Assembly: GCA_013289585.1 (NCBI GenBank)
Contig: JABCZR010000013.1
Location: 1 to 64,000, forward strand
Length of the DNA stretch: 64,000 nt
DNA from: Acidobacteriota bacterium
GTDB lineage: Bacteria; Acidobacteriota; Terriglobia; Acidiferrales; UBA7541
Reading direction: 5' to 3'
The notes under the pieces were generated by a model, which was given only the letters and a program-made list of their open reading frames with translations, was not told the origin of the DNA and did not search any database. Below, piece by piece: positions 36,798-59,355 of the stretch (position 1 is the stretch's first letter; every line of letters starts with the position of its first letter). The translations under genes were made by a program, and so were the position numbers.

Positions 36798-37106
36798 ATG
36801 GATAGAGCCCAGATGGAAAAGGTTGCGAAAGCCCTGGGGGACGAAACCCGCCTGAGAATCTTCGAGGCTATTTCCGGCGCCGAGCACATGAATTGCGGTG
36901 AAATCGTGTCCCTGCGCGGCGTCACCCCGGCGACGGTATCCCACCACCTGAAAATCCTGAGCGAAGCCGGATTAATCGCCTGCCGCAAGGAAGGCCAGTT
37001 CGTCTACAGCCAAACCGTGCCTGAAACGATCGATGCGTACACGAAGTCTTTGACGAAGATTGCAACGCGAAAGAAAAAATCGCGGCGACACGGTGCCAGA
37101 AATTAG
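36798..37106 (+). CDS. ArsR-family transcriptional regulator
   Basis: A 102-residue winged-helix regulator: KALGDETRLRIFEAIS at the start and the recognition helix region GVTPATVSHHLKILSEAGLI, then the wing CRKEGQFVYS. No Cys cluster typical of metal sensors is seen (only isolated Cys), so it is likely not a metal-responsive member. It would bind as a dimer near its own promoter and that of the divergent SDR gene. Its stop overlaps the stop region of the convergent DUF336 gene by 4 bp, which could allow transcript interference. Confidence 0.88.
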   Translation: MDRAQMEKVAKALGDETRLRIFEAISGAEHMNCGEIVSLRGVTPATVSHHLKILSEAGLIACRKEGQFVYSQTVPETIDAYTKSLTKIATRKKKSRRHGARN

Positions 37107-38734
37107 TCGGTAGGATTCCTCGGAAACTTGAAGTACGGCAGGCGCACGCCCTGATCCAGGATTTGATCGGCGCGGATATTGGTGGGTGCTTCGAATCCCG
37201 CGGTTCCGCCGTTGGTTACGTAGTCGTCCTGGTCAACGCCATCGCCGCTGACGCCCAGTCCGCCAACGAGCATGCCGTTGCGGTAGAGCCCGGCGCTGCC
37301 TGGAAAAAAGACGATTCCGCTCTTGTTCGAATTCGCCGCGCCGCTCTGAAATCCCTGCGTGCAGGGATTCGTCAGATCCATCGTGTACAGATTGAAAAAT
37401 GGCCCGGAGTTCGAACCGTCGATTCCCGGCGGATAAAGCGGTTGCGCGCCAAAACTAATCGTTCGGTTAGTCACCGCTGTTCCCATGGGCACGCCGTTTA
37501 AATCGGCAGCCGTTCGAACGGAGCTGTTGAAGTAGACCATGTTGCGCGCTTTAGTCGCGGCCACGTCAATGCTGAAAACCGTCGAATCCTGCATCCGGCG
37601 TAATCCGATGATCGTTCCGTCGAGATCAGCAACGGCGATGACCATCCGCGTTTTTGAACCGAGCGGCAAGCGAATCGCCGCACGCGTCGTGTTGGCTGTC
37701 GTCTCCGCATTGTTCAGAATTCCCGTCACATCGGCCGCGCTCAATCCGCCCAGCGGTCCGGCTGCCGGAGGAATCAGATCGCCTTCCGGCGGCTGCCCCT
37801 GACTGTTTGTGGGCGCAACGAAAAAGCTTGCCGTGCCCGCAACGGGGCCAGCTGAAAAACCAGTGGGAAGAGAAGTCTGGTCTACAAAGGGCAGAGCAAT
37901 TCCGCCGATAAAAACCACGCCGGGTGCAGCAGGCGTGGGGCCAAAATTGTTTCCCGCGCCGCGCTGGGAAGTGCCGCCGACTAGCGCCGCATACTCTGCA
38001 ACGTTCAGGTTGCTTGACGAAGTGACCACGCCGATTCCGCCGACCACTACATTCTGGTAAAAGATGGGCACGCCGCCGGGATTCACCGCGGTAGCGTTCG
38101 AATCATCGATATTGGCTTTGCCAGTGAGAATTCCGAGTCCGAACCCACCGCCCAATGCCAGCGAGGGAGGAATCCTGCTTTCGAATGCCGCGTCGTTGAC
38201 CAACGTGCAGCCGCGATTGGTGTTTTCGATGCCGTAGAGATCCGCAGGCCCTTGATTCATTACTCCAGGAGGAAAATGAATCCCACTGATGAAGCGCACG
38301 GTTCGCGAAGAAAGCGGCGCCTGGTCATTGCTGAAAAACGCGCCGGTACGCGCGAGCGCCACAGCCACATCGTTCGCGTTTTGCGTTTGACCGAAATTCC
38401 CGATCGCCGTGGCTGGCGCATTTTGCGTTCGAAACACTCCAAGCACGAATCCCGCGCGGTCCACTACGGCAACCACCATATCCACGTTTACGGAGTTCAC
38501 AGCAGCGGTCACAATACTCTGAACATCGGCCACTTGAAGGGGTTGCACAGCCGGATTCGGCGGTGGCGGCAAAAGTGGAGTCGTGCTGCTTCCACCACCA
38601 CATCCAATCAGGAGCATCATCAGCGCTCCAGCGATTCCCACCGCGAGGGCCACGCCCAGCACCAACATCCTCTGCCGGGCTTGCAGTGCGCGTTGAGATT
38701 CGACAGGCTTCCGCAGCTTGTGAGTTGTTTCCAT
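37103..38734 (-). CDS. lipoprotein with tandem DUF336 (GlcG/HbpS-like) domains
   Basis: A 543-residue protein, probably a lipoprotein: after a basic N-terminus and hydrophobic segment comes the lipobox LIGC (Cys45), then a Ser/Pro linker. Two DUF336/GlcG-HbpS domains follow: the first from about 66 (VQSIVTAAVNSVNVDMVVAVVDRAGFVLGVFR) and the second from about 335 (TGILNNAETTANTT, MVIAVADLDGTIIGLRRM). Both contain the ATKARN/ANDVAVALARTGAFF-type helix. HbpS-like proteins bind haem; others of the family are uncharacterised. Tandem domains on a lipid anchor are unusual for me. Start: the first ATG (38734) or Met23 are both possible. Confidence 0.75.
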   Translation of the reverse strand: METTHKLRKPVESQRALQARQRMLVLGVALAVGIAGALMMLLIGCGGGSSTTPLLPPPPNPAVQPLQVADVQSIVTAAVNSVNVDMVVAVVDRAGFVLGVFRTQNAPATAIGNFGQTQNANDVAVALARTGAFFSNDQAPLSSRTVRFISGIHFPPGVMNQGPADLYGIENTNRGCTLVNDAAFESRIPPSLALGGGFGLGILTGKANIDDSNATAVNPGGVPIFYQNVVVGGIGVVTSSSNLNVAEYAALVGGTSQRGAGNNFGPTPAAPGVVFIGGIALPFVDQTSLPTGFSAGPVAGTASFFVAPTNSQGQPPEGDLIPPAAGPLGGLSAADVTGILNNAETTANTTRAAIRLPLGSKTRMVIAVADLDGTIIGLRRMQDSTVFSIDVAATKARNMVYFNSSVRTAADLNGVPMGTAVTNRTISFGAQPLYPPGIDGSNSGPFFNLYTMDLTNPCTQGFQSGAANSNKSGIVFFPGSAGLYRNGMLVGGLGVSGDGVDQDDYVTNGGTAGFEAPTNIRADQILDQGVRLPYFKFPRNPTD

Positions 38735-38938: not shown

Positions 38939-41179
38939 ATGATCTTCTTCTCCCCGCGGCAAGTGCGACGCGCGTTCTGCGCGGCTTGCTGTCTTTCGGT
39001 TTTTTTGTCCGCGCTCGATGCCGCATCAGCGTGGGATCAATCTCCGGCTCCGGCGCAAGTTCCCGCGACACAGTCCCGTGAGCCCGCGCCGCCCACGCGC
39101 ATCCCACGCCAGCAAGCGCAAAACACCACCGCCGTCGACGGGATTGTGCGCGACGCCGGTTTCCCAAGCACCACGCTTCCCGTGCCTGGCGCAACGCTCA
39201 CGCTAAGAAATTCGCAATCCGGCCAGGTTTTCAGTACTACTACTTCAGGGGAGGGTGTCTTCCGTTTGTTTCCGCTACCGCCGGGGCAATACCAGCTACG
39301 CGTTGAAGCCAAGGACTACGCGCCATTCGTTTTATCGGATCTCACTCTGCAACCCAATGAAGTTTTGACGCTGGAAATTTCCCTTATCACTGTCGCAACG
39401 GTGGAAACGCGTTCTCGCCTTCCGCGCCTTCCTGAGCTTGGTCCGGCACTTTCCGCCGAAGGGCAGCCTTCGTACGGAACTTATCGCGAATTCCGGCATC
39501 GTCTTGATTCGGATTCCAATTACGTCGAGAATTTATTGCCGGATACACTCCCGCTCGCCGTGGACGTCTACAATCCGCTCCCCAATCGCTGGGATCTGCA
39601 GCAACCGGACTATCGGCGTTACCCGCAGCCAGGCGAGTACATCTACACCAAATCTCATTGGTACGATCCGTTCAACCGCAATCGCTTCAAAGGGGATGAG
39701 CCGATCTGGCCGGAATTGTTTGGCCAGCAGACTTTTCTAAATGTCACCGCGTCTTCTGAAACTTTTTTGGATGGCCGCCGCGTTCCTTCGCCCAGCAACG
39801 TAAGCGCCGAGCGTCCCGGCAGCTCCGCCTTCTTCGGTAAGGGCGGACAATTGTTTCTCGATCAAATATTCAGCGTAAGTTTTGATCTATTTCATGGCGA
39901 TGCGGGTTTCAAGCCGGTGGACTGGCGCATTCGAATCACGCCCGAGCTCAGCCTGAATAATCTAAGAGTTCAGGAGTTGGGCATCGTTGGTCCCGACGTG
40001 CGAAGCGGAACCAATCGCTTCGACGATCATGTGGGCTTGCAAGAAGCATTCGTGGAGGTGAAACTCCACGATATCGGCCCGAATTACGATCTTATTTCCG
40101 CGCGCGCAGGCATCCAGCAATTCAACGCTGACTTTCGCGGCTTCCTCTTCGTGGACGAACAGCCGGGACTGCGCATCTTCGGGAATCTTCACTCCGGCCG
40201 CATCGAATACAACGCCGCTTATTTCAATTTCCTTGAGAAGAACACCAACAGCGGCCTCAACACGTTCGAGCGCCGGCATCAGCAAGTTATTCTTGGAAAC
40301 ACTTATTTGCAGGATTTCTTTTTTCCGGGTTATACAGCGGAGTTCGTCGGCGCCTGGAACAAGGATGATCCCAGCCTGCACTATGACGACAACGGTTTCC
40401 TGGTCCGGCCCGCGCCCATCGGCAACGTAATCAACCAAAATCCCGGCGGGGGAGCGATTCTCCACGGCATTCGCGTAGGTTACTTTGGTTGGCTTGGCAG
40501 CGGCCACATTCGCCGCCTCAATCTCACGCACGCCTTCTATCAAGCGTTCGGCGAAGACACGTTCAATCCGCTGGCGGGAAAGCGCGTCACCGTCAACGCG
40601 CAGATGGCTGCGGTGGAACTCTCCTACGACAAGGATTGGATCCGCTACCGCGTCTCGACGTTCTACACTTCCGGTGACGCAAATCCACGGGATAGCCGCG
40701 CGCGCGGATTCGATTCCATCGTGGATCTACCCAACTTTGCGGGTGGCATCTTCAGCTTCTGGAACAGCGAGGGGATTCGACTGACCGGTTCCGGCGTTCT
40801 GCTCACCACGCCCGGCAGCCTGCTGCCTTCGCTGCGCTCCAGCAAGGAAGAGGGGCAGGCCAATTTCGTCAATCCTGGAATATTCCTGGCCAACGCCGGC
40901 GCGGATTTTGATATCACTCCCAAACTAAAAGGATTCGCGAATTTCAATTTTCTCCGTTTCGAACGAACCGAGCCGCTGGAGGTTCTGCTTTTTCAGTCGC
41001 CCATTCATCACACCATCGGCGAAGATCTCGGCGTTGGCGTGCAGTACCGCCCGCCCTTGTCGGAAAACATTCTGATTACGGGCGGAGCTTCGATGCTCCA
41101 GCCCGGGCAAGGTTTCAAGGATATCTACACGGGCCGGACGCTTTTTTCGCTATTTGGTTCCGTGAAGTTTACTTTTTGA
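38939..41179 (+). CDS. outer-membrane beta-barrel with regulatory-like Ig domain, partner of multihaem cytochrome
   Basis: A 746-residue outer-membrane protein. A signal peptide covers about 1-31, with a Pro/Gln-rich linker to 60. A carboxypeptidase-regulatory-like domain follows (about 62-155: [46 protein letters not shown]), then a beta-barrel of about 550 residues with alternating aromatic strands that ends in FGSVKFTF, the expected C-terminal Phe. It has no clear plug domain, so it looks more like a porin than a TonB receptor. Its stop overlaps a potential TTG start and lies 12 bp before the ATG of a ten-haem cytochrome gene, so the two are probably made together. I infer a porin-cytochrome pairing for electron passage across the outer membrane. 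Confidence 0.7.
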
Positions 41180-41190
41180 GAGCTCACTCA

Positions 41191-44100
41191 ATGCCGCTGA
41201 TTCGAATACTCGGGCGGTTCGCATCCCTGAATTCGCAGCAGGGCCGCGTCCGGTTTTTTACGCTCTGCGCTCTCTGCGCCTCTGCGTTATTTCTCTGCTT
41301 TGCGATTTCTCTGCGGTCCGTCTCGGCCATCGCGCAGGAACAATCACCTGCATTTCGCGGGCAATCTCAGGAAGAAGCGGACCGCAAATCCGCGGGCTGT
41401 ATCTCCTGCCACACTTCGACCGACGAACCCACGATGCATCCGACGAAAACGGTGCATCTCGGCTGCACGGATTGCCACGGGGGCAATTCTTCGATTTCCA
41501 TTGCAGCGGGAATCACTGCCAATTCTTCCGAATATGAATCCGCCAAGGAGAAGGCTCACGTTCAGCCTCGCGACCCCAAGTTTAAGGCTCGCTCCGCACT
41601 GCCGGAGCGCGTATACACGAAATGGCTGAAGGAATCCGCTGACTACATTAAGTTCGTAAATCCGGGCGATTTGCGTGTGGCGCCGGAAACCTGCGGAGCA
41701 TCAGGCTGCCACGCGGCCGAGACCCGTGCTGTTTCCACGAGCATGATGACGCACGCCGGGCTGCTGTGGGGCGCGGCGCTATACAACAACGGCGGCTATC
41801 CCACAAAGAATACGCGGTTCGGGGAGAGCTATGACCGCGACGGGAAGCCTCGAGCGATCAAAACTTTTCCGAAGCCGACTCCCGAGGAGACTCGCGCCAA
41901 AGGAGTCATGCCCGAACTTGATCCACTTTATCGCTGGGAAACTTCGCAGCCCGGCAACGTCTTGCGCGTGTTTGAACGCGGCGGGCAAAAGAAAGCGGAG
42001 ATCGGGAATCCCAATCGCGAGGAGGATCCGGGAAAGCCAGATGACAAACTGAGCGACCGCGGATTTGGCACAGAGTTGAGGACGGATCCTGTTTTTCTTG
42101 GCTTGCAGAAAACGCGATTGCTCGATCCGGTGATGTCGTTGCCGGGAACCGAGGACCATCCAGGCGACTACCGCGCCAGCGGATGTACGGCTTGTCACGT
42201 TATTTACGCCAATGACCGTGATCCGGCGCACTCGGGAGCGTACGCAAAATATGGCCACTCCGGTTTCAGCGGCTCATCGGATCCGACTATTCCGAAAAAT
42301 GAGTCCGGCCATCCCATCAAACATGCGTTCACGCGTTCGATCCCTTCGAGCCAATGCATGATCTGCCACATTCATCCCGGCACGAACATGGTGACGACGT
42401 ATTTCGGCTTGACGTGGTGGGACAACGAGATTGATGGGGATCGGATGTATCCGAAAGAGCAGCGCAATCCGACCGAGGAACAGCGATTCCAATCCCTGGC
42501 GCGAAATCCGGAAGGCGCGGCGGTTCGCGGCTTGTGGAGCGATGAAAAATTTCTCGAGCAAACGGGCAGCCCGGAGTTCAACAAGGAATTGAAAACTACC
42601 CAGTTCGCTGATTTTCATGGGCATGGCTGGGTGTTCCGCGCGGTATTCAATCACGACCGGAAAGGGAATTGGCTGGACAAGAACGGCGCGCAAATCGCTT
42701 TCGACGATCCCGAGCGTTTCGGGAAAGCCGTGCATCTTGCGGACATACATCTGGAAAAAGGGATGCAGTGCAACGACTGCCACTTCGCGCAGGACAATCA
42801 TGGCAACGGGAAAATTTACGGCGAGCCGCGCGCCGCGGTGGAGATCGATTGTGTCGATTGCCACGGCACGATTCGAAAGAAGGCCGCGTTGGTCACGTCA
42901 GGCCCTGCGGCCCCCGAAGGCGGGCGGCACCTTGACGCACTGCGAACGCCGTGGGGATTGCGGCGATTCGAATGGCGCGGCGAGAAGGTGATTCAGCGCT
43001 CGATGTCCGCAGAAGGCAAAGAGTGGGAAATCGTACAGACGATGGACACAATTACTCCCGGCAACGTGCACTTCAGCGCGAAATCGATGCGCGCCAAGCT
43101 GATTAACAAGGATGGCGTTGTCCCAGCATATTTGTCCGCCGACGACGCGACTCTTGCGCACGCCAACAGCAGCATGACTTGTTATTCATGCCATACGTCG
43201 TGGACGCCGACGTGTTTCGGCTGTCACTTGCAGATGACGGCCAACGCGCGGAAGCCGATGCTGCACAACGAGGGCCTGGTCACCAAAAATTACACCAGCT
43301 ACAACTTTCAGGTCCTTCGCGACGACATTTATATGCTCGGCGTGGACGGCACGGTGACCGGCCATCGCATTGCGCCGGCGCGATCCTCTTGCGCGGTGCT
43401 GGTCAGTTCGCAAAACGCGAATCGCGAATGGCTTTACTATACGCAGCAAACGATCTCCACGCCGGGACTTTCCGGCCAGGCGTTCTCCACGTTTGTGCCG
43501 CACACGGTGCGGGCAAAAGAAACCAAACAGTGCAGCGACTGCCACGTCTCCACGCAGAATGACAACAACGCGTGGATGGCGCAGTTGCTTTTACAGGGCA
43601 CCAATTTTATGAACTTCATGGGCCGCTACGTTTATGTGGCCACAGGCAAAAAAGGATTTGAGGCCATCGCCGTCGCGGAGCATGACGAACCGGAGGCCAT
43701 CTATGGCAGTGATCTGCAGCGCATCGCTTATCCGGACAATTACAAGAAATTCGTGGAGCATCGCAGGGAGCTTAGCGCTACCGCCGAACATCCAGGCAAT
43801 GTGCTTGATATTCAGGCGCGCGGTGAATATGCCTACGCCGCGAACGGCCGCGGCGGGCTTCGCGTGTACGACATCGCAAATATTGATAACAAAGGATTCT
43901 CGGAGCGCATGACGACCGCGCCGGTTTCACCGATCGGACAGCGCTTCTTTGTGCCCACGAAGAATGCGCTTGCGGTCGCATCCCCTACAACGCTGGCCGT
44001 TGATCCGCTGCGCCAACAACTGCCCGAGAATGAAGAGCAGCCGATTCACCTGCTCTATGGGTTCCTGTACGTCGCGGATCAGCAAGAGGGACTTGTTGTC

Positions 44101-45057
44101 GTCGGGGATCCCAATCCGAAATCGAAAAGCCCGGGCGTCGGGACGCTTCTCGACGGCAATCCTGCGAATAATTTCTTGAAGCGCGCGCTGGCGTTCAATC
44201 CTGGCGGCGTGCTGACAGGCGCGCGCCGGATTACCATCGCGGGCACTTACGCTTACGTCCTCACGGATAAAGCGCTGGTGGTGGTAGATCTTGAGAATCC
44301 GCTGGCGCCGAGCGTTGCGGCCAACATCGGTGCGCCGGTACTCAACGACCCGCGCGGCATCGCGGTGCAATTCCGCTATGCGTTTGTCGTGGATCGCGAA
44401 GGGCTCAAAGTTCTCGATGTCACGGATCTCTCCCAGCCCAAATCGGTCGCCAACGCGCTGGTGCCTTTCGTAGATGCGCGCAACATCTACATTGCCCGCA
44501 CTTATGCTTACGTTTCCGCGGGGAAGCAAGGACTTGCGATCGTTGATGTCGAAAATCCCAGCGATCCGAAGCTTGATCAATTTTTTACTGCGGACGGCCA
44601 GCTCAACGATGTCAATGACGTCAAGATAGGGATGGTCGCGGCCAGCGCTTTCGCTTTTGTGGCCGACGGGAGAAATGGCCTGCGCGTTTTGCAGATTCTG
44701 TCACCCTGGGATGACCCGGCGCATTTTTCCGGCTTCAGCCCGCGCCCCACACCCAAACTGATTGCCACGGCTCATACGCGCGGCCCGGCGCTGGCGCTTT
44801 CGAAAGGTATCGATCGTGACCGCGCGGTCGACGAATCAGGAAACCAGATCGCCGTGTTCGGCCGACGCGGCGCACGCCCGCTCAATCGCGCGGAAATGCG
44901 TTCGCTCTACATTCATTCCCGTAGCGGCGAAGCGTACTCCGTCACGGATGATGATGTTGAAAAAACGCACTCTGCGGCGTCGTCATCGTCTGGATCATCG
45001 ACTTCGTTGACTTCTTTGTTTATTCGAGCTCGAGCCTGGTTCAATTCTTTTCACTGA
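41191..45057 (+). CDS. multihaem cytochrome c (10 haem motifs) fused to LVIVD propeller
   Basis: A 1288-residue exported cytochrome. A signal peptide (about 20-49) ends SAIAQ. The haem-binding motifs are CISCH (70), CTDCH (92), a CX4CH (CGASGCH, near 168), CTACH, CMICH, CNDCH, CVDCH, CYSCH, CFGCH and CSDCH, all before about residue 790. The part from about 810 to 1180 is a propeller of LVIVD-type repeats ([44 protein letters not shown]). It would carry electrons in the periplasm or at the cell surface. The ATG at 41191 was chosen; a TTG at 41176 overlapping the barrel's stop is the alternative. It is coupled to the upstream barrel gene and followed after 10 bp by a deacetylase gene. Confidence 0.85.
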
Positions 45058-49357: not shown

Positions 49358-50815
49358 TTAGTGGCCGCCGTTTCCCGTACGTAGCGCGGGTAACGTAAAT
49401 CTCGGCGTAACTTCCTTGCGCTTCGACCAATCGTGGTACGTGTGGCATTCGAAGCAGCGAGACTCCGCGTGATCCGGCCCGGGCGCGTGGCAAGTCTGGC
49501 AAGTCGCAATCCCCGGCAGGAGAATGTCACTCGATTCCGTGCTCGTCAGAGCTTTCACATGGCAGCTCACGCAAGTGAAGCCGGTGTGTGCGCTGTGATC
49601 GAATTTCGCATGCGGCATCCAGCGCAGTGTGGTGAGCGCAGGCAAGATTTCCGGAAGCGGCTTTTGGTCGAACTTACTGTCCTTTGGAGAGCGCAACCAC
49701 GGAGCAAGCTTCGGAATCGTATCAAGGCTTCCCTCGAACCTATAGGTGAGCATATGGCATTGTGTGCAGGTCTTGCGCCAGAGCAACTCTTGAGCGTCGG
49801 AGGTGTGTTCCGCGACCCACTGTGCAGGAGTAAGAACCTGAAATTCCGGCAGCAGCGGTTTTCCGGTGAGGTCACGATTCGGATCGCGCACCTCACGCAG
49901 TTCATTTGGGTGCGCAGCGATATATTCCTGAAACTTCTTGATCAAAAAGGCGCGCACGACTTCGGGCTCGTCGTGCGGAACGCCTAAATCGAACCGGCTA
50001 TCGAAGGTGAGCAGATGGCAACCGGCGCAGGCGTTCGCGAATCTTACCGGCGTCATCAGTTCCCGGCCCGAGGCAGGTTGGCGCCGGATGAGCGGGATCG
50101 CAACGCTGGGAACTGGTCCTTTGCTTTCGGCGTAACTCACTTTAGCACCGACATAGCTCGCATCGGAATAGGCCGTCGGTCGCGGAACCGCTGCGGGGCG
50201 GTGGCAATCGCCGCATGTGAGCTGCACGGCGGGGCCAGTAGGTCCGCGGCGAATTGGCTTCATATGAATGGCGTGATTGAGCCTGACCGTGTAAGGATCT
50301 CCGCGATTTCTGAGGGCAGTAAACTCCGGGTGCCCGTCTTCGAAGCTGCGAATGTTGGATGCGTAGCGCGACGTACCGCCATTTGGGCCGAGTTCAGAAT
50401 GACATTCGGCGCAGGATTGATTGCTCGCGGCGGAGATGTTAACGCGGCCTCTGTGTTCGGTGTGACACTCTGCGCACCTCAGCTCTTTTCTGCCGACGAT
50501 ACTGACAGGGTGGTGGACTGGACCATCGTGGCATGCGAGGCAGGCCGAGTCTGCAGCCCTCGCGGAGAAAGCGCCGGCTTGTTGCACATGGCAAGTGGCG
50601 CATTCTTTTTCGAGAATGGCGTGAGCTTCCGACATGCGTCCGCTCGAGTACACGCGATGATCACCAGAAAATCCGCGCCACGCGATCCAAACCAATGCAA
50701 GTAAAGGCAGCAGGAGGCTAAGCCAGAATTTCGCGCGTTTCAGCGGCGTCGGCCTCTTGAAATAGTTGAGGTCGATGCGCTGCGCGAGCTTTTTCGTTGT
50801 GCGTGTGCGTGCCAC
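49358..50815 (-). CDS. membrane-anchored decahaem cytochrome c
   Basis: A 485-residue protein: cytoplasmic basic start, one membrane helix (about 30-47), then a periplasmic domain with ten CXXCH motifs (CATCH 72, CLACH 92, CAECH 114, CAECH 135, CGDCH 201, CAGCH near 262, CTQCH, CVSCH, CQTCH, CFECH). The first four are packed as in cytochrome c3-like quinol-independent electron carriers; extra His residues can supply distal ligands. It has a GTG start, and lies 9 bp after the cytochrome-b-like gene. It is the last gene of a four-gene operon whose first genes are NADH-dehydrogenase-like, so it likely takes electrons from that complex in the periplasm. Partner identity is inferred. Confidence 0.88.
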   Translation of the reverse strand: MARTRTTKKLAQRIDLNYFKRPTPLKRAKFWLSLLLPLLALVWIAWRGFSGDHRVYSSGRMSEAHAILEKECATCHVQQAGAFSARAADSACLACHDGPVHHPVSIVGRKELRCAECHTEHRGRVNISAASNQSCAECHSELGPNGGTSRYASNIRSFEDGHPEFTALRNRGDPYTVRLNHAIHMKPIRRGPTGPAVQLTCGDCHRPAAVPRPTAYSDASYVGAKVSYAESKGPVPSVAIPLIRRQPASGRELMTPVRFANACAGCHLLTFDSRFDLGVPHDEPEVVRAFLIKKFQEYIAAHPNELREVRDPNRDLTGKPLLPEFQVLTPAQWVAEHTSDAQELLWRKTCTQCHMLTYRFEGSLDTIPKLAPWLRSPKDSKFDQKPLPEILPALTTLRWMPHAKFDHSAHTGFTCVSCHVKALTSTESSDILLPGIATCQTCHAPGPDHAESRCFECHTYHDWSKRKEVTPRFTLPALRTGNGGH

Positions 50816-50824
50816 GTTTTTCTG

Positions 50825-51805
50825 CTAAAAGCGCAGCGCCATTACGGCATGAATGGCGCCGAGCAAAATCAGCGCGAGCGAAAGCGGAATGTGCAACAAC
50901 AGCCAGCCATGCAGCCAATGGTGCAATCGGGCCTGGCGCTGGAGCTGGCGCGCTTCGTCGCAAATATCTTCGAGATCGTCGAGTGTCGTGTGCGCCGCCG
51001 AGGGCAGCAGCGTACGCAATCCAGCAAACGCGCTGGAAGCCTTCTGCGCGTCGCTGAGGCGCTGGCCACGCCTGTCTGGATGTTCGAGGAACGGTCGTAT
51101 TTCCTCTAGATAAAAGCGGCGTAGCGGCGCGCTCTCTTCCTCACTGAGTAAAATAATTTCGGGAGCCGCGGCAACCGCAGCGCTCGCGCCCGCACTAACC
51201 GCGGCCGACGTGCGCAGCGGAACGGCGGACGCCGCCATCGTCCGCAACGCCGTGAAACCACCGGCGCGCTGCACTTCTGCATTAGAAAGTTTGGCGAGAC
51301 CAAAAGAGCCGCAAACAGATTCGACGGCGCAATCGGCTTCTTCGCGGAGGAGCGAGCGCACGTGGCCGATTTCGTCGTAGATCGTTTCCAGTGGAACCTC
51401 CGTGGTCATGACGCGAGGAACATAGTGTTGTAGGACAGCGCCGAATACACCGCTGAATACGGTGATGATCAGCAGCCACATCAAGACGCGTGTGAGCGTG
51501 CCGCCGAAGTGAAACCCGCCGTGAAAAAGAATCAGTGGCAGCGCGAGAAAACCGAGCCACAGATGACCGCGCATCCAGGCTTGGGCACGGCCGACGCGCC
51601 AGGTAGGAACACGTTTGCGCGCGCCCAGAAGCGCCGCGAAAATCATGAAAGTGAAACCAAAGACGCCGAAAATCAAACCAATCGTGCCGCCCCCGCGCGG
51701 TCCTTGCGGGGAAGTGAGCGAGTAAGACACATAGCTCACCGTGGAGACCACCAGAATCGCCAGCGACGCGAGGGCCCAGCCGCGTTGGGTCTTGTCCATT
51801 CTCAT
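50825..51805 (-). CDS. cytochrome-b-like membrane protein
   Basis: A 326-residue inner-membrane protein with helices at about 10-29, 42-61, 81-100, 107-128 and 300-324, and a soluble ~160-residue insert between the last two. Membrane His residues are suitably placed for haem b: His81, His95, His99 and His127, with His296, His299, His305 and His319 in the C-terminal part. No family signature is decisive; it resembles cytochrome b subunits that sit beside Fe-S oxidoreductases. Its start overlaps the stop of the upstream Fe-S gene (ATGA), and the decahaem gene follows 9 bp later. I infer that it passes electrons from the cytosolic Fe-S protein across the membrane. Confidence 0.7.
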   Translation of the reverse strand: MRMDKTQRGWALASLAILVVSTVSYVSYSLTSPQGPRGGGTIGLIFGVFGFTFMIFAALLGARKRVPTWRVGRAQAWMRGHLWLGFLALPLILFHGGFHFGGTLTRVLMWLLIITVFSGVFGAVLQHYVPRVMTTEVPLETIYDEIGHVRSLLREEADCAVESVCGSFGLAKLSNAEVQRAGGFTALRTMAASAVPLRTSAAVSAGASAAVAAAPEIILLSEEESAPLRRFYLEEIRPFLEHPDRRGQRLSDAQKASSAFAGLRTLLPSAAHTTLDDLEDICDEARQLQRQARLHHWLHGWLLLHIPLSLALILLGAIHAVMALRF

Positions 51806-53973
51806 TTCGCAATGCCCTGGCCGAGCATTTCGGCAAAAAATGTTTTTGGGTCCACGCGGTGCGCCGCGTCGTGGGGACAGGCGTAAACGCAGCTAGGTTC
51901 CTTCAAATGCGTGCACAAATCGCACGACGTCGCTTTTTGCTTGATGGCCGCCTTCTTGCGCCCGGCCCGCGCCGGGTCTTCTATCATCACTTCAAAAGGA
52001 TGCAGATTGATGTTGCCGTAAGGGCAATTCTGCGCGCAGAGGCCGCAGCCGATGCACCAATCCTCGATGATGACTTCGAGTGAATTGCGCCGCCGAATCG
52101 AGCCGACGGGGCAGCCCACCATGCAGAGCGGATCGCGGCACTGGCGGCAACTTGTGGCAACGAGATACTGGTCGAAGCGCAAGCCGTCGCGGACGAGTCT
52201 CGTGATTCCGTCGTGCGCGTCGGCGCAAGCGTTCACGCAAGCATCGCAGCGCGTGCAGTTCTGCAAATCCAATATGAGCAGGCTCTGCGCTTCCATCAAA
52301 CCTTGCGACAGGAATTGTTCGATGGGAACGTTCTGAACCATCTGCATGCGCTGCTGATTGGCGGCGTGGCGTTCGGCGGCTACGGCTTCAAGGCCCTTTC
52401 GAACGCTGGGAAAACGCTCGATCATTTGGCGAAAATCGTCGCCGGAGATGCGCACAAGTTCGACATGGTCGAGCGCCGTGCAGGTGGCGGTTCGAACGCC
52501 GCCGCCCAGCAAGCCGATTTCACCGAAATAGTCGCCGCGCGAAAGGTAGGCGAGAACCATTTCCCCGCCCGGGTAATTTTCCGAGATTTTCACGAAACCG
52601 ATTCGAACGAGATAAAAACTGTCGGCAGGTTCGCCCTGCTGCGCGATCGCCTGGCCCGGAGCGAAGCGCTGCAGTTCGACGCTCTCCTTCAAGTGTTCGA
52701 TGAAATCAGGCGAAAGATCCGCAAACATAGGAACGCCGCGGAGATGATTTTCGAGAGCCCGGCGGCGGTAGGTCTGGTCGAGCTGCGCGCGGAAGGATTT
52801 GTTCTTGAGCATGATGTCGAGAACATTGCGCAGCATTTCGAATGCGACGACGTCGGACTCCGCGATCACCGTCGCGGAACGCGGATAAAAATTCATGCAC
52901 GTCATTTCGCCAAAAAGATCGCCGGGGCCCAGTTCCGCCACCGGATTGCCGTAAGAAAGATCGACCGATGCGTCGATGGGAATGGTTCTGTCGCGTGTTT
53001 CTTCCTCGCGTTTGTCTTCTTCGCGCGGGACTAACGTGCTGGTGAGCCGCTTGAAGAGACCTTTTGCACCGCCCTGTGTCTTGACGTGCGCGATGGGCGT
53101 GGAAATGGATACCTTGGCTTTGCCTTCGAGAATGTAAAAAGCGGTCGAGCCGAATTCGCCTTCGCGGCAAATGATGTCGCCCTTGCGGAAGCGGCGCTTG
53201 ACGATGGCGCCGCGGTTCAACTCGAGAAATGTTCCGGAGACTCCTTTGAAAACAGAAATCTGAAGCAGGTCTTCCGCCTCGAATCCTTGCGCGTCGGGGC
53301 CTGCCGCGATGGCGGTCCCGACGACACTTTTGTTCGTCAGCGCGCCGGTGGGACAGGAGACCATGCATTCGCCGCAGGAGATACAAGTCGAATCACCCAT
53401 GGGCGAGTTCAGATCGAAGGCAATCCCCGCGGAATAGCCTTTGCCCATGCGGCCGAGAACGAAATTGTTTTTCACTTCGTCGCATCCGCGGATGCAGCGA
53501 TCGCAGAGTATGCAGGCGTCGTGGTCCACGGCGATGGCGAGCGAAGAATCATCCTTACCGCGCGCGATGGTGCGTTTCGCAAACCGCGGTTGAGAAGCGC
53601 CGGCCGCTTTCGCAAGCGTTTCCAGTTCGCAGTCGCCGGAATTCTGCTGCCGCGCGCAAGGTGAAGGATGATCGGACATCATTAATTCCAGCAGCGTCTT
53701 GCGCGCGCTCAGAACTTTTTCGGAATCGGTAACCACCTTCATGCCTGGCTCGACCGGGCGCACGCAGGAAGCGGAAAGCACGCGCGCGCCGGTATCCACG
53801 ACGCAAAGGCGGCAAACTCCAACGGGAGTCTGGCTTTGCAAATGGCAGAGCGTGGGAATGTTGACGCCGTTCATGCGCGCGGCATCGAAGACACTCGTGC
53901 CGGCAGGCACGCGGACAAGTTGTCCGTCAAGAGTGATGTCAACGAATCCTGGAGGTGTGGCGGCGGTCGTCAT
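51802..53973 (-). CDS. NuoG-like/ferredoxin Fe-S protein with two cyclic-nucleotide-binding domains
   Basis: A 723-residue soluble protein with three parts. Residues 1-210 resemble the N-terminus of NuoG or Fe-hydrogenase: a 2Fe-2S site (Cys43, 54, 57, 70), a His/Cys-type region (His102, Cys106, Cys115, with the middle Cys replaced by Gln109), and two 4Fe-4S sites (Cys154-164 and 197-207). Residues 245-410 and 415-545 are two cyclic-nucleotide-binding domains (GDLFGEMTCMN and GDYFGEIGLLGGG cassettes). Residues 570-700 are a DmsB/NrfC-like ferredoxin with four Cys groups (573, 609, 640, 684 onward). It begins 1 bp after the NuoEF-like gene and overlaps the membrane gene. It likely wires NADH electrons to the membrane protein under nucleotide control. 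Confidence 0.85.
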   Translation of the reverse strand: MTTAATPPGFVDITLDGQLVRVPAGTSVFDAARMNGVNIPTLCHLQSQTPVGVCRLCVVDTGARVLSASCVRPVEPGMKVVTDSEKVLSARKTLLELMMSDHPSPCARQQNSGDCELETLAKAAGASQPRFAKRTIARGKDDSSLAIAVDHDACILCDRCIRGCDEVKNNFVLGRMGKGYSAGIAFDLNSPMGDSTCISCGECMVSCPTGALTNKSVVGTAIAAGPDAQGFEAEDLLQISVFKGVSGTFLELNRGAIVKRRFRKGDIICREGEFGSTAFYILEGKAKVSISTPIAHVKTQGGAKGLFKRLTSTLVPREEDKREEETRDRTIPIDASVDLSYGNPVAELGPGDLFGEMTCMNFYPRSATVIAESDVVAFEMLRNVLDIMLKNKSFRAQLDQTYRRRALENHLRGVPMFADLSPDFIEHLKESVELQRFAPGQAIAQQGEPADSFYLVRIGFVKISENYPGGEMVLAYLSRGDYFGEIGLLGGGVRTATCTALDHVELVRISGDDFRQMIERFPSVRKGLEAVAAERHAANQQRMQMVQNVPIEQFLSQGLMEAQSLLILDLQNCTRCDACVNACADAHDGITRLVRDGLRFDQYLVATSCRQCRDPLCMVGCPVGSIRRRNSLEVIIEDWCIGCGLCAQNCPYGNINLHPFEVMIEDPARAGRKKAAIKQKATSCDLCTHLKEPSCVYACPHDAAHRVDPKTFFAEMLGQGIAK

Positions 53974-53974
53974 A

Positions 53975-55738
53975 CTAGGGCCGAATTCCTACGCGCTGGG
54001 CTTCTCCCGCGCGTGACGCGGGAGTGAAACAGATCCCGCTGGTGCACTGGCCTTTCAAAACGTGCGCGTCAATCTCGGCGCGAAAATGTTTCAAGACCGA
54101 TTGAATCGGCGCGGGAACGATTTGCCCGAGGCCGCAGATCGAGGTAAGGCTCATCGCCTGCGAGAGCTCCTCTAGAAGCGCGAGGTCCGCGCGGTATTGC
54201 GGCTCCGGCACGCCGCCTTGCGTCCAGCGCACCAGCATGTCCGTCATTTTTTGCGAGCCCACTCGGCAGGGGACACACTTTCCACAGGATTCATTGCGAT
54301 AGAAGCGCACAGCGTTCAGAGCCATGTCCAGCATGCAGGTGGTGTCATCGCAGACCACGATTGCGCCGGAACCAAGCATGGAGCCGGCTTCTGCGAGCGC
54401 CTTGAAGTCGAGGCACACATCGATCATCGACGCGGGAAGATAGCCCGAAGAAGGGCCGGAAGGCGCAAACGCTTTTAATTGGCGGCCGCCGCGAATGCCG
54501 CCAGCTCGGCTGAGGATGACCTCGCGCATGGACGTGCCCATGGGGACTTCGAAGATGCCGGGGCGCGCAACGTGGCCGCTGACCCCGACAAATTTCAGGC
54601 CGCGCGAGCCGCCTGCGCCTTGCGCGGCGAACCAGTCCACACCGCGCGCGAGAATCTGCGGAACGTTGATGAAAGTCTCAACGTTGTTGAGGACGGTGGG
54701 CTTTTGCCAGAGCCCGGCTTGCACGGGAAAGGGAGGCTTGTTGCGCGGCTCGGCGCGGTGTCCCTCAATCGCTTCGATCAGCGCGGTTTCCTCACCACAG
54801 ATGTAACCGCCGGGACTTACAAAGACTTCAAGATCGAATCCAAGCGGTGTTCCGAGAATGCTTTTACCCAGAAGGCCCGCGCGATAGCAGCGGCGAATCT
54901 CTTCGCCAAGAACCTCTTCCTGAAGATGGTATTCGTGGCGGATATAGAGAATTCCGCGCCTCGCGCCGGTGACGACGCCCGCGATGATCATTCCTTCCAC
55001 GAGCAGATGCGGGAGATGCGTCATGATGAAGCGGTCTTTGATGGTCCCGGGCTCGCTTTCATCGGCGTTGCAGACGACATATTTTACGGGATCGGATTCT
55101 TTGCGGACGAGATCCCACTTCAAACTGGTGGGAAATCCAGCACCACCCATGCCACGAAGTTCCGCGGCTTTCAGCTGGCTAAGGACGTCGTCGAATGCCC
55201 GCGATTGAACCAGCTTGCGCACGACGCCATAGCGCTCGTCCAACGTGGCGCCGTTGCCGTAAGGATCCGCTTTGCATTCGATTCGTGCCTGCTTGGGATG
55301 CGGCTCATGAAAATCTTCGCCGCGGATTGCCCGGCATGCAAGTTGCTCGGCATGTTCGGCGGCGACGCCCGTGAAAATTTGATCGTTGATGGAGACAGCG
55401 GGAGCGTGGTCGCAGCGTCCGAGGCAGGAAACGTCGCGAATCTGCACGTCGTCCGGCCGCGAAGTCGCAAACCGGCGCTCGAGATCGGCGCGCAGTTCGC
55501 AAGCACCATTGAGATGGCAGCTCATGTCCGCGCAGACGCGAATCTCCGCTTTGGCCGGCGGAACGAGATGAAAGTGGGGATAGAAACTCGCGACGCTATG
55601 AATCTGGTAGAGCGGCGTCTGGGTGCGTTGTGAGAGGCCCTCCAGTTCCGCCTTTGGCAGGAAGCCGTAGCGGAGTTGGATGGCCCGTAGGTCGTCGAAG
55701 ATCACGGCGCCCCGTCTCGCGAGAAAAGCGCCGGACAT
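53975..55738 (-). CDS. NuoE-NuoF fusion, NADH-oxidising flavoprotein
   Basis: A 587-residue fusion. Residues 1-125 are a NuoE-like thioredoxin-fold 2Fe-2S domain (Cys69, Cys74, Cys105, Cys109). From about 165 it is NuoF-like: RGMGGAGFPTSLKW and CNADESEPGTIKDR for FMN/NADH, GGYICGEETALIEAIEG, and near the C-terminus SCGKCVPCRVG with a later Cys (SICGLG) for a 4Fe-4S cluster. It should oxidise NADH and pass electrons to the NuoG-like product of the next gene. The start was set at 55738, where the NuoE homology begins; the frame is open further upstream without homology and would overlap the divergent gene's promoter. It is the first gene of the four-gene operon. The full proton-pumping complex I genes are absent. 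Confidence 0.88.
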   Translation of the reverse strand: MSGAFLARRGAVIFDDLRAIQLRYGFLPKAELEGLSQRTQTPLYQIHSVASFYPHFHLVPPAKAEIRVCADMSCHLNGACELRADLERRFATSRPDDVQIRDVSCLGRCDHAPAVSINDQIFTGVAAEHAEQLACRAIRGEDFHEPHPKQARIECKADPYGNGATLDERYGVVRKLVQSRAFDDVLSQLKAAELRGMGGAGFPTSLKWDLVRKESDPVKYVVCNADESEPGTIKDRFIMTHLPHLLVEGMIIAGVVTGARRGILYIRHEYHLQEEVLGEEIRRCYRAGLLGKSILGTPLGFDLEVFVSPGGYICGEETALIEAIEGHRAEPRNKPPFPVQAGLWQKPTVLNNVETFINVPQILARGVDWFAAQGAGGSRGLKFVGVSGHVARPGIFEVPMGTSMREVILSRAGGIRGGRQLKAFAPSGPSSGYLPASMIDVCLDFKALAEAGSMLGSGAIVVCDDTTCMLDMALNAVRFYRNESCGKCVPCRVGSQKMTDMLVRWTQGGVPEPQYRADLALLEELSQAMSLTSICGLGQIVPAPIQSVLKHFRAEIDAHVLKGQCTSGICFTPASRAGEAQRVGIRP

Positions 55739-55920: not shown

Positions 55921-57282
55921 ATGCGCAAAGCTTCCAACTTCTTCCTGTTCCGCGTGGCCATCTGCGCATCGTTCGTGATCCTCGCGCCGCTGCTTTCCGC
56001 CCAGAACGAGCCCATCAAATACATTGGCCCGGGTTCGTGCGCAGCGACAAGTTGCCACGGAAGCGTGAAACCCGTCGAGGGCAGCCGCATTCTGCAAAAC
56101 GAATACTCGACTTGGATCATCAAGGACAAGCACAGCCGGGCGTACCAGGCGTTGACCGGGGACATCGGCGAGCGTATGGCCCGGATTTTGAAAAGTGGAG
56201 CGAAGGCCGAAGAAGCACCGAAATGCCTGGCGTGTCATGCGCTCAACCCGCCGCAGGATCAACGCGGGCGAGCGTTCGAAATCTCCGAAGGCGTCTCCTG
56301 CGAGAATTGCCACGGACCGGCGTCGGCATGGCTGGGGCCGCACACGACACGCTCGTGGCCGCATGAAAAATCGGTGGCGCTGGGAATGCATGACACGCGA
56401 AACATTATTCACCGGACGGAGAAATGCCTCGAATGCCACCTGGGAACGAAAAACAAGTTTGTCGATCACGAGATGATCGCCGCTGGGCATCCGGATCTTT
56501 ATTTTGAACTGGATTCGTTTTCGGCGGTGATGCCGCGGCACTGGAAAGTTCCGCGCGAATCGGAGCCCGGCAAGCCCGTCGAGAATGCTGCCTGGGTTGG
56601 ACTGCGCGAGTGGAGCACAGGTCAGGCCGTGCAGCTGCGTGCAGCGATGGAGCGGCTGACTTGGCGCGCAAAATTCGAACGTTATGACAAGAAAGAGATT
56701 TGGCCGGAGTATTCGGAACTTTCCTGCTTCGCCTGCCATCACGCGCTAGGCCCGGCGAAAGACAGTTGGCGGCAGGAACATGGTTACGCGGGGCGGCGCC
56801 CGGGTGATCCGGCGTGGAATAGTTCGAGATACGTCGTATTCAGTTTGCTGGCGAAGCAGGTGGACTCGGCAACCGCGCAGGACCTGGAGCGCCAGTTAGC
56901 CGTTGTTTCCGGCGAGATGAGCAAGCTCAATCCCGATCGCAACACCATCGTGTCTGCGGCGACGGCCGCCGCACCGTTGGCGATGCGCATCGCGGAACGC
57001 CTGGAAACCATGCAGTATGAACAGGCCATCGCGCTGCGTATGTTGCAAAGCATTTCAGACGACGCAGAAAATATCGCGCTTGCCGACGAGCGTGCCGCGG
57101 AACAAGCCACCATGGCGATGGATTCGCTTTACATCGCCTACAGCAAGGAAGCAAAGCCTGCAAACGCCGCTGAAGTCCGCGCCGCCATCAACGGCCTCTT
57201 CCAGCAGCTCGAAAACCCATCGGCCTACAACGCAGATCAATTCGCTTCCGCGCTCCGTAAAATCCGCCCGCTGCTGAACTAG
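55921..57282 (+). CDS. periplasmic pentahaem cytochrome, cytochrome c554-like
   Basis: A 453-residue exported cytochrome with signal peptide (about 1-26, ending LSAQ). The haem motifs are a CX4CH (CAATSCH, near 41), CLACH (near 103), CENCH (near 123), CLECH (near 163) and CFACH (near 270). The arrangement GSCAATSCHGSVKPVEGS with SRAYQAL is like the cytochrome c554 / multihaem 'CYTC554' family. The C-terminal 180 residues are helical and lack haem sites. The ATG at 55921 starts the signal peptide; upstream codons are very basic. It is divergent from the NADH/cytochrome operon with about 180 bp between them, so shared control is likely. Confidence 0.85.
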   Translation: MRKASNFFLFRVAICASFVILAPLLSAQNEPIKYIGPGSCAATSCHGSVKPVEGSRILQNEYSTWIIKDKHSRAYQALTGDIGERMARILKSGAKAEEAPKCLACHALNPPQDQRGRAFEISEGVSCENCHGPASAWLGPHTTRSWPHEKSVALGMHDTRNIIHRTEKCLECHLGTKNKFVDHEMIAAGHPDLYFELDSFSAVMPRHWKVPRESEPGKPVENAAWVGLREWSTGQAVQLRAAMERLTWRAKFERYDKKEIWPEYSELSCFACHHALGPAKDSWRQEHGYAGRRPGDPAWNSSRYVVFSLLAKQVDSATAQDLERQLAVVSGEMSKLNPDRNTIVSAATAAAPLAMRIAERLETMQYEQAIALRMLQSISDDAENIALADERAAEQATMAMDSLYIAYSKEAKPANAAEVRAAINGLFQQLENPSAYNADQFASALRKIRPLLN

Positions 57283-57332: not shown

Positions 57333-57905
57333 ATGAATCACTTTGAAACATGGTTTTGCGGTTCCCCGTTGTGGCGGTATGTGACGCGACGCCAGCTCTT
57401 ACCCTGGATTCTGGAAGGCTCGGATTTAGGCGAGCAGGTGCTGGAACTGGGAGCGGGGCCGGGTGCTGCGACGGAAGAGTTGCGGATGCGAGCGGCACGG
57501 GTGACGAGTCTTGAGTACGATCACGGATTTGCGGCGCGACTTGGCGCGCGTGTCAGGGGCACCAACGCCAGCGTAATTCAGGGCGACGCAGCGTTATTGC
57601 CGTTTCCTGACAAAGCCTTTTCTTCAGCAATCGCGATTCTCATGCTGCATCATTTGCGTTCGGAAGAATTGCAAGATCATGCTTTCGCTGAAATTCGCCG
57701 CGTGCTTCGCCCAGGCGGAGTTTTTCTTGCGTTTGAAATCCAGGATGGTTGGTTACACAGAGTAGGGCATATTCGAAGCACGTTCGTGCCGATTGCACCG
57801 ACTGCTGCTCCCGCGAGACTTATAGCTGCGGGATTTTCGCAAGTTTCCGTCGATTCGCGGCGCGGCGGTTTTCGAATTCGGGCTTTTCGTGCTCCGGAAG
57901 CTTGA
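57333..57905 (+). CDS. class I SAM-dependent methyltransferase
   Basis: A 190-residue small methyltransferase. The SAM motif LELGAGPGAAT lies near residue 38, the acidic end of beta-2 in SLEYDHGF, motif III in GDAALLPFPDKAFSSAI and the post-motif LRPGGVFLAFE. It has an UbiE/type-11 layout but is short, and the acceptor substrate is unknown. It lies 50 bp after the pentahaem cytochrome and 55 bp before a P450 gene, all in one direction, so the three might be co-transcribed. Confidence 0.83.
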   Translation: MNHFETWFCGSPLWRYVTRRQLLPWILEGSDLGEQVLELGAGPGAATEELRMRAARVTSLEYDHGFAARLGARVRGTNASVIQGDAALLPFPDKAFSSAIAILMLHHLRSEELQDHAFAEIRRVLRPGGVFLAFEIQDGWLHRVGHIRSTFVPIAPTAAPARLIAAGFSQVSVDSRRGGFRIRAFRAPEA

Positions 57906-57960
57906 ACGAGTCCAACGCGCCCGCGTTGACGCATCGCCATGGCGGGCATAGCATCGTTGT

Positions 57961-59355
57961 ATGTGGCGCGCGACCCGCAAGAAATTTCCTCCCGGTCCCA
58001 ACGATGGGCTCAAACGGTGGTCGCTCGGGCCGCTGAATGACAATCCGCTGAAGTATTTCACACGGCTTGCGCGCGACTACGGCGACGTCGCGGGAATCCG
58101 CGTTCTGAATTTCGGCACGATCTTCATCAATCATCCTGACACCATCGAGGAAGTGCTGGTCACCAATGCCCGGAAATACACGAAAGGGCGCGTGCTGCGG
58201 GCAAACCGCCACGTCTTCGGCGAAGGCTTGCTGACCAGTGAAGGAGAGTTCTGGTTGCGGCAGCGGCGGCTGGCGCAGCCGGCGTTTCATCGCGCGCGGA
58301 TTGCTTCGTACGCGGCTACGATGGTGGAGTATACGCAGCGGATGCTGGAAGGCTGGCAGGAAGGAGAAGAGCTCGATGCGCATCAGGAAATGATGCGGCT
58401 GACGTTGCAGATCGTGGGGAAAACGCTCTTTGACGCCGACGTCGAACGCGACGCGCAAGACGTGGGCAAATCACTGGAGATGCTGCTGGAGATTGGCGCC
58501 AATTTCCGGCGCACTATTTTTGTGCCGCACTGGATTCCCACGCCGACAAATCTTCGCATGAAGCGGGAAGTGGCGCAGATCGAGAAAATCCTTTACCGCA
58601 TCATCGCTGAGCGCCGCGCATCCGGCCGCGACGCCGGCGATCTTCTCTCCATGCTTCTCGCAGCGCAGGATGAGGACGGCACGCGCATGACGGACAAGCA
58701 GCTCCGCGATGAAACCATTACGTTGTTCCTCGCGGGCCACGAAACCACTGCCAGCACACTTTCCTGGGCCTGGTGGCTGCTGGCGCAGAATCCCGCCGTC
58801 GAAGCAAAGCTGCATGCGGAGATGGACACCGTGCTCGCCGGCCGCGCGCCCACTCTCGATGATTTGCCGAACTTATCCTATACCGCTCACGTCATCACAG
58901 AAGTGCTGCGGCTCTATCCCGCGGCGTGGGGGCTGGCGCGCCTGGTCGTCGAGCCCCACGAGGTTGCAGGCTATCCGGTTACAAAAGGGATGGGCGTGGC
59001 GATGGCGCAGTGGGTGGTGCATCGCGATCCGCGCTGGTATGACGAACCGGAAAAATTTCAGCCGGAAAGATGGGAAGGTGATCTGCTTAGACGGTTGCCG
59101 CGTTTCGCCTATTTTCCTTTTGGAGGCGGGCCGCGCCAATGCATCGGAAATACCTTTGCGCTGATGGAAGCCGCGCTGGTGTTGGCGACGATTGCACAGA
59201 AATTTCGCTTGCGGCTTGTGGCGCATCATCGCGTAGTGCCGCTGGCATCCATCACGCTGCGTCCGAGGCATGGAGTTCGAGTTACGCTGGAGCGGCGTCA
59301 CCAGATCAACGCGCGTGATAGCTCGATCGGCGCGCAATCGGCCGTAGCGGATTAG
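57961..59355 (+). CDS. cytochrome P450
   Basis: A 464-residue soluble P450 monooxygenase. The I-helix oxygen-binding motif is AGHETTAS (near 260), the K-helix EVLRLYP (near 317), the meander region FQPERWEGD (near 364) and the haem loop FPFGGGPRQCIG, with the Cys ligand near 394. No membrane anchor is seen. It would hydroxylate a lipophilic substrate using reductase and ferredoxin partners that are not in the window. The sequence type (RANRHVFGEGLLTSEGEFWLRQRR) resembles CYP102/CYP4-like bacterial members often called fatty-acid hydroxylases; that is only a resemblance. Confidence 0.9.
   Translation: MWRATRKKFPPGPNDGLKRWSLGPLNDNPLKYFTRLARDYGDVAGIRVLNFGTIFINHPDTIEEVLVTNARKYTKGRVLRANRHVFGEGLLTSEGEFWLRQRRLAQPAFHRARIASYAATMVEYTQRMLEGWQEGEELDAHQEMMRLTLQIVGKTLFDADVERDAQDVGKSLEMLLEIGANFRRTIFVPHWIPTPTNLRMKREVAQIEKILYRIIAERRASGRDAGDLLSMLLAAQDEDGTRMTDKQLRDETITLFLAGHETTASTLSWAWWLLAQNPAVEAKLHAEMDTVLAGRAPTLDDLPNLSYTAHVITEVLRLYPAAWGLARLVVEPHEVAGYPVTKGMGVAMAQWVVHRDPRWYDEPEKFQPERWEGDLLRRLPRFAYFPFGGGPRQCIGNTFALMEAALVLATIAQKFRLRLVAHHRVVPLASITLRPRHGVRVTLERRHQINARDSSIGAQSAVAD

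Follow-up and report, generated by a model that had tools for sequence, protein, structure and literature searches.

A conserved four-gene operon of soil Acidobacteriota as a probable NADH:multihaem-cytochrome oxidoreductase feeding an outer-membrane porin–cytochrome pair

Acidobacteriota rank among the most abundant bacteria of soils and among the least understood. The locus described here raises the question of how such a bacterium might pass electrons from NADH to multihaem cytochromes beyond its inner membrane with neither proton-pumping subunits nor, possibly, the quinone pool. It is a minus-strand operon in a stretch of 64,000 nucleotides (positions 1 to 64,000 of contig JABCZR010000013.1, assembly GCA_013289585.1; hereafter the window) of a 4.73-Mb Acidobacteriota genome. 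The named-record relatives of the window are soil and groundwater Acidobacteriota metagenome-assembled genomes, the nearest mostly labelled "gp2". The operon consists of four genes:

53975–55738, minus strand: EF, a NuoE–NuoF fusion, predicted from Pfam domains and ligands to be an NADH-oxidising diaphorase (flavin mononucleotide [FMN], [2Fe-2S], and [4Fe-4S] N3)
51802–53973, minus strand: FdCN, with a HoxU/HydA-like N-terminus, two cyclic-nucleotide-binding domains, and a DmsB-like C-terminus
50825–51805, minus strand: Cytb, a five-helix membrane protein with a cytoplasmic N-terminus, predicted to be a di-haem cytochrome b
49358–50815, minus strand: Dec, an inner-membrane-anchored decahaem cytochrome c, predicted to be bis-His at all ten haems

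EF and FdCN are separated by 1 bp (end 53975, start 53973), FdCN and Cytb overlap by 4 bp (end 51802, start 51805; ATGA), and Cytb and Dec are 9 bp apart (end 50825, start 50815). On re-check, this layout agrees in its coordinates and junctions with the initial annotation, which was made from the sequence alone and proposed a route from NADH to a multihaem cytochrome via one membrane protein and no pumping subunits. That central idea fits all our findings, and it is strengthened because the four-gene order is conserved, the histidine ligands of Cytb are paired, and an outer-membrane porin–cytochrome pair co-occurs with the operon. Our favoured reading, with a probability of about 0.6, is an NADH:multihaem-cytochrome oxidoreductase in the inner membrane from which electrons enter an outer-membrane porin–cytochrome conduit, possibly under gating by cyclic nucleotides.

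EF contains PF01257 (2Fe-2S_thioredx), PF01512 (Complex1_51K), PF10531 (SLBB), and PF10589 (NADH_4Fe-4S), corresponding to a NuoE-type [2Fe-2S] domain joined to a complete NuoF with FMN-binding, SLBB, and N3 cluster domains. The four NuoE-type cysteines, the GEE nucleotide motif, and the four N3 cysteines are retained in 75–78 of 78 relatives. The start codon is probably the GTG at 55705, matching the position at which the relatives begin, with the initially chosen ATG at 55738 as the alternative. Neither in the four genes nor in the tested neighbours were NuoB, NuoCD, NuoI, or the proton-pumping membrane subunits found; for the pumping subunits, this agrees with the initial annotation. A separate complex I locus in the genome (L049, G000:C2:167000-186500) has its own NuoE–F-like fusion of 604 amino acids, 37% identical to EF, indicating that EF provides an NADH input separate from, and additional to, that of complex I. 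The operon as a remnant of complex I was ruled out, given this separate locus and the DmsB-like and cyclic-nucleotide-binding parts, which are foreign to NuoG.

FdCN matches the Pfam domains Fer2_4, NADH-G_4Fe-4S_3, the Fer4 families, and cNMP_binding, the last of which is its strongest match (E = 4.8e-40). For residues 1–220, the NADH-dependent [FeFe] hydrogenase A6 (HydA) and HoxU are better NCBIfam matches than NuoG, and HydA1 is the best match of FdCN in the PDB. This N-terminus, with a [2Fe-2S] motif and two four-cysteine Fe–S motifs in which all cysteines are retained, is followed by two cyclic-nucleotide-binding (cNMP) domains and then by the DmsB-like end, whose 16 cysteines are sufficient for four [4Fe-4S] clusters. 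The cysteine pattern and the cNMP motif FGE..R(S/T)A are retained across 81–89 relatives, and the phosphate-binding cassettes are kept in both cNMP domains (E356/R365 in 88 of 89 sequences; E485 in 88 and R494 in 85 of 89). Two class III nucleotide cyclases are encoded in the genome, so a candidate cNMP ligand could be made. An electron-bifurcating hydrogenase was also considered and ruled out: there is no H-cluster domain, and the HydA-type matches end at about residue 220, where cNMP_binding and Fer4 take over.

Cytb has five hydrophobic segments. H81 and H95 in helix 3 occur in 85/85 sequences, and H305 and H319 in helix 5 in 84/85; the histidines thus form two pairs on two membrane helices, spaced approximately 14 residues apart within each helix. 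Such spacing is typical of di-haem b proteins. A strongly basic loop (GARKRVPTWRVGRAQAWMRG) connects helices 2 and 3, so that by the positive-inside rule the N-terminus of Cytb is placed in the cytoplasm. Searches of Pfam, NCBIfam, PDB-sequence profiles, and Foldseek gave no match. The CXXCH motifs of Dec number exactly ten, and its single hydrophobic segment is N-terminal (residues 28–46). Across 17 diverse sequences, exactly ten invariant histidines lie outside these motifs (positions 65, 101, 121, 162, 181, 184, 281, 407, 410, and 461); with ten proximal and ten distal histidines, ten bis-His electron-transfer haems are predicted, and no obvious catalytic haem. No PDB relatives of Dec were found. 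Two of the protein identities initially proposed, the NuoE–NuoF fusion and the membrane-anchored decahaem cytochrome, are thus borne out by the four Pfam domains of EF and by the ten motifs and single hydrophobic segment of Dec. The other two hold with amendments: the "NuoG-like/ferredoxin" protein does have Fe–S and ferredoxin domains, but its N-terminus is nearer to HydA and HoxU and its two cNMP domains had been missed, and the "cytochrome-b-like" membrane protein has the hydrophobic segments and the paired invariant histidines but matches no family or fold.

The gene order was compared among the best 80 relatives from GTDB genomes. EF–FdCN–Cytb–Dec was complete in 70, whereas seven loci were cut by contig ends and three were different (L120, L127, and L128). 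The relatives belong mainly to several Acidobacteriota groups and Rokubacteria; a few other taxon names occur, possibly through misbinning. Within the genus, the order is kept in each of the 16 examined loci that hold the full gene, usually with a divergent gene for a c554-like cytochrome. By the criterion of the initial annotation, its proposal would have been refuted had the genes not been conserved together in relatives; the four-gene order proved to be conserved, and chance adjacency or a local oddity was ruled out, because both gene order and ligand residues persist across large divergence. The distribution is patchy, with the operon in only six of 297 evenly sampled Acidobacteriota genomes, three of these being core-only. 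In the core-only genomes (L130, L131, and L132), FdCN is shorter by the N-terminal 226 residues and the operon has no EF, and the cNMP-ferredoxin, Cytb (recognised in L132 by profile search), and Dec are kept; the c554-like gene is kept in L130 and L132. No second EF was found in these three genomes, where the best EF-type scores (377–417 bits) are complex-I-like, compared with at least 741 bits for full-length operon EF.

The associated gene set extends beyond the operon, to 55921–57282 and 38939–45057 on the plus strand. The initial annotation was right about the four genes but missed both the divergent c554-like gene and the two-gene outer-membrane unit 4 kb away. Together with a further recurrent neighbour, these genes are:

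55921–57282, plus strand: c554-like periplasmic multihaem cytochrome with a signal peptide and the Pfam domain Cytochrome_C554 (listed open reading frame start, 55825)
38939–41179, plus strand: outer-membrane beta-barrel (porin-like), with approximately 18 strands by AlphaFold and an N-terminal carboxypeptidase-regulatory domain
41176–45057, plus strand: 1293-amino-acid multihaem/LVIVD-repeat protein with an ExtM-like stretch and haem motifs
37103–38734, minus strand: 543-amino-acid putative lipoprotein with HbpS-like domains (PF03928, E = 1.4e-17), a neighbour in 31 loci

The barrel protein (746 amino acids) was modelled with a predicted local distance difference test score (pLDDT) of 72, and the model matches AlgE and OprD-type porins (best matches: AlgE, Foldseek E = 5.9e-15; VIA-align Z = 25.7 over 357 residues, root-mean-square deviation 3.2). 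Its homologues mostly end in an outer-membrane-type F-x-F signature. MtrB was not among the listed fold matches, although the two may be related. The gene for the 1293-amino-acid protein overlaps the barrel gene by 4 bp, and its product has nine CXXCH motifs and one CX4CH motif, LVIVD repeats (E = 1.7e-28), and an ExtM-like stretch of approximately 270 residues (E = 1.3e-21). No PDB relatives were found for it, and it is probably located in or on the outer membrane. The arrangement by which porin–cytochrome conduits are recognised, an outer-membrane beta-barrel (here by prediction) encoded beside a multihaem cytochrome, is therefore present.

Co-occurrence ties this pair to the operon. Among 41 related genomes, a high-scoring homologue of the 1293-amino-acid protein was found in 19/19 with the Cytb operon and a full-length one in 0/22 without it, and the barrel was found in 19/19 with the operon and in 0/22 without operon-type Cytb; within the genus, the operon and the outer-membrane pair were present in 18 genomes and absent from seven. 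In a census of neighbours around the operon, the 1293-amino-acid protein occurred in 42 loci, the barrel in 30, and the HbpS-like lipoprotein in 31. Pairwise distances correlate among the four operon proteins (r = 0.85–0.93; permutations at most 0.21), between these four and the barrel and 1293-amino-acid proteins (r = 0.80–0.89), and among seven proteins (r = 0.80–0.93; permutations at most 0.34), which supports co-inheritance, not contact, and partly reflects common species descent. The wiring of the conduit is well supported by gene order, cofactor ligands, co-occurrence, and the predicted fold of the barrel.

The same neighbourhood bears on where the electrons go after Dec. The c554-like protein has four CXXCH motifs and one CX4CH motif, and its gene, divergent from EF, adjoins the operon in most relatives. 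As the closest partner, present even in the core-only genomes L130 and L132, and as a member of a family in which many relatives are generally known as periplasmic enzymes or carriers, it could be the true output, feeding a periplasmic reductase or a detoxification reaction, and the barrel and 1293-amino-acid proteins would then serve some other purpose. This seems distinctly unlikely to us, since a c554-like protein alone would need neither of the two, whereas both genes co-occur perfectly with the operon and their distances track those of the operon proteins.

Several other genes recur nearby. The HbpS-like lipoprotein gene is found beside the c554-like or barrel genes, and in most genus members the c554-like gene is followed by a methyltransferase and a P450-like gene (57333–59355, plus strand), possibly a genus-specific linkage. 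The gene at 33435–34847 (plus strand) scores above the NCBIfam cut-off as a soluble NAD(P)+ transhydrogenase of the SthA type; it has homologues near the operon in seven loci, including one directly after FdCN in L120, and its product might adjust the NADPH/NADH balance for the conduit. Spot checks for multihaem genes elsewhere in the genome found a protein with nine CXXCH motifs encoded after a multi-helix membrane protein (L134, G000:C2:346500-366000) and a separate one with nine such motifs (L135, 8063–9706).

That the proteins form a complex is inferred, as are the direction, quinone independence, regulation, and final acceptor proposed here. The path has all its cofactor ligands, and these are kept across widely divergent relatives. 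EF would oxidise NADH at FMN, and the electrons would pass through its clusters to the HoxU-like part of FdCN and on to the four [4Fe-4S] clusters of the DmsB-like part. They would then traverse the membrane via the two putative haems b of Cytb, from the N-side pair H81–H305 to the P-side pair H95–H319, and the P-side haem would load the bis-His haems of Dec. Dec would pass them to the c554-like cytochrome, to the barrel and 1293-amino-acid protein, or to both, from where they would reach an acceptor located in the outer membrane or beyond it. The cNMP domains, located between the input and output Fe–S parts of FdCN, may gate this flow. Electrons that leave the cytoplasm with no protons pumped dissipate the membrane potential and leave a proton behind, and the route should therefore consume energy, not conserve it. 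In a genome that has complex I and three haem-copper oxidases as well, an energy-costing route makes best sense as a regulated NADH overflow valve, which the cNMP domains fit.

Energetics also bear on whether the chain might run in reverse, with an extracellular donor reducing NAD+. Diaphorases are reversible, and similar multihaem entry proteins run both ways in nature, as in Fe(II)-oxidising bacteria (PMC6295460). Multihaem potentials, however, usually lie above that of NADH/NAD+, inward flow would oppose the membrane potential, and only a donor of very low potential would suffice. Electron import is therefore unlikely on thermodynamic grounds, and very much so in our estimate.

The alternative that competes most seriously with direct transfer is a quinone site in Cytb itself. 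Cytb has a distant homologous family, matched by hhalign with a probability of 98.5 (E = 2.2e-15) and identical in histidine spacing (H109/H123 and H289/H303). This homologue is absent from the window's own genome and was found in genus members both with and without the EF–FdCN–Cytb–Dec operon. The family matches Ni_hydr_CYTB weakly (E = 6.7e-6, below the Pfam cut-off), and di-haem b proteins that work with DmsB-type ferredoxins, as in formate dehydrogenase-N, nitrate reductase, and hydrogenases, are well established as usually having a quinone site. If Cytb had such a site, the operon would encode a non-pumping NADH:menaquinone oxidoreductase, or a menaquinol–decahaem step joined to NADH, with the cytochromes reached via the quinone pool; the known inner-membrane entry points CymA, CbcL, and ImcH take their electrons from quinol (PMC6295460, PMC12307469). 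We regard this arrangement as doubtful, because the cofactor chain is already continuous without quinone and a decahaem c protein with matching ligands nearly always adjoins Cytb. The operons of the distant family encode cytochromes with 18–51 CXXCH motifs, a signal-bearing protein of 550–600 amino acids, and a membrane-anchored ferredoxin–flavoprotein with a pyridine-nucleotide oxidoreductase fold. They repeat the wiring seen here behind another kind of NAD(P)H-type input, which speaks for our favoured reading. That two NAD(P)H-type inputs unrelated to each other go with a single cytochrome b family argues that the job of the family is to transfer electrons from pyridine nucleotide to multihaem cytochromes. 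These operons, found in other genomes of the genus and class (L042, L044, L046, L047, and L048), also encode a protein of 270–300 amino acids and represent a second putative electron-export operon.

Some observations weigh against the direct NADH-to-cytochrome route that we favour. The three core-only genomes mean that NADH is not the sole possible donor, and two Planctomycetota have EF–FdCN alone, with Cytb–Dec–c554 elsewhere in the genome. These core-only and split loci indicate that the core is a cNMP-ferredoxin/cytochrome b/decahaem conduit to which the NADH diaphorase is an added, fused plug-in; the NADH-fed machine of the initial annotation stands in its conserved four-gene order, but its NADH part is optional in three relatives. 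The structural model of Cytb is poor (pLDDT 64) and has no fold match, so its predicted haem b binding rests on the histidine pattern. In FdCN, the HxxxCxxCxxxxxC set for a His-ligated [4Fe-4S] cluster is incomplete: H102, C106, and C115 are kept and the middle cysteine is lost. Position 109 (window positions approximately 53647–53649) is Q in 71, E in six, and H in five of 82 sequences and Cys in 0/82, whereas Cys is present at the equivalent position in three aligned PDB relatives (two HydA1 and one formate dehydrogenase alpha subunit). With this N5-type ligand lost, the predicted Fe–S chain of FdCN differs from that of complex I.

Trans-envelope electron conduits as such are known, and the metal-respiring bacteria described so far do not take this route; the present composition appears to be new. 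The HoxEFU diaphorase of NAD-reducing hydrogenases and the HydABC-type hydrogenases share NuoE, NuoF, and the N-terminal HoxU/HydA-like Fe–S part, whereas the operon is without a hydrogenase subunit, has lost the ligand at Q109, and adds cNMP domains, a DmsB-like ferredoxin, a membrane cytochrome b, and a decahaem protein. Complex I (NDH-1) has the same NuoE/F/G-type NADH input, but the operon has no NuoB, NuoCD, NuoI, or proton-pumping subunits. CbcL, MtrH, and MtoC likewise hand electrons to multihaem cytochromes at the inner membrane, and CbcL joins a multihaem c domain to a HydC/FdnI-like di-haem b domain; these are, however, quinol-linked single polypeptides, whereas here separate genes encode the b and c parts (Cytb and Dec), with an Fe–S unit of NADH type as the input. 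Rnf is generally known to pump ions and to be linked to ferredoxin, and the operon encodes no Rnf subunits. With the Rnf–multihaem pairs of Methanosarcina (PMC13343851), it shares the direct handover from a soluble low-potential carrier to a multihaem cytochrome across the membrane. The porin–cytochrome conduits MtrAB, Pcc, and ExtABCD and the Geobacter cluster extHIJKLMNOPQS (PMC5877670) also place an outer-membrane barrel beside a large multihaem protein, but the present barrel resembles AlgE-type porins with 18 strands, its multihaem partner has LVIVD repeats, and the ext gene order is absent. The Geobacter ext cluster has a bc-like cytochrome b alongside its porin and multihaem cytochromes but no NADH unit (PMC5877670), and the NuoEFG of Carboxydocella (PMC6085454) and Desulfatiglans (PMC13343851) occur in a different setting. 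The present gene combination was not found described in 5.39 million papers of the open literature, most subscription papers lying outside the search, just as the initial annotation recognised no described complex of this composition.

In its widest form, which we put forward tentatively and at rather less than even odds, the proposal is of a quinone-independent, cyclic-nucleotide-gated conduit from NADH to the outside across both membranes, present in soil Acidobacteriota and Rokubacteria and altered in Planctomycetota, with a single cytochrome b family linking several different NAD(P)H-oxidising inputs to multihaem outputs. If this is true, models of extracellular electron transfer, which now start at the quinone pool, would change. 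Metal or humic reduction by soil Acidobacteria has been proposed earlier (PMC3669403), and EF–FdCN–Cytb–Dec together with the barrel and 1293-amino-acid pair would provide marker genes that make it directly testable. Acidobacteriota could then dump NADH electrons directly to cytochromes, probably outside the cell, under the control of a signal and without energy conservation.

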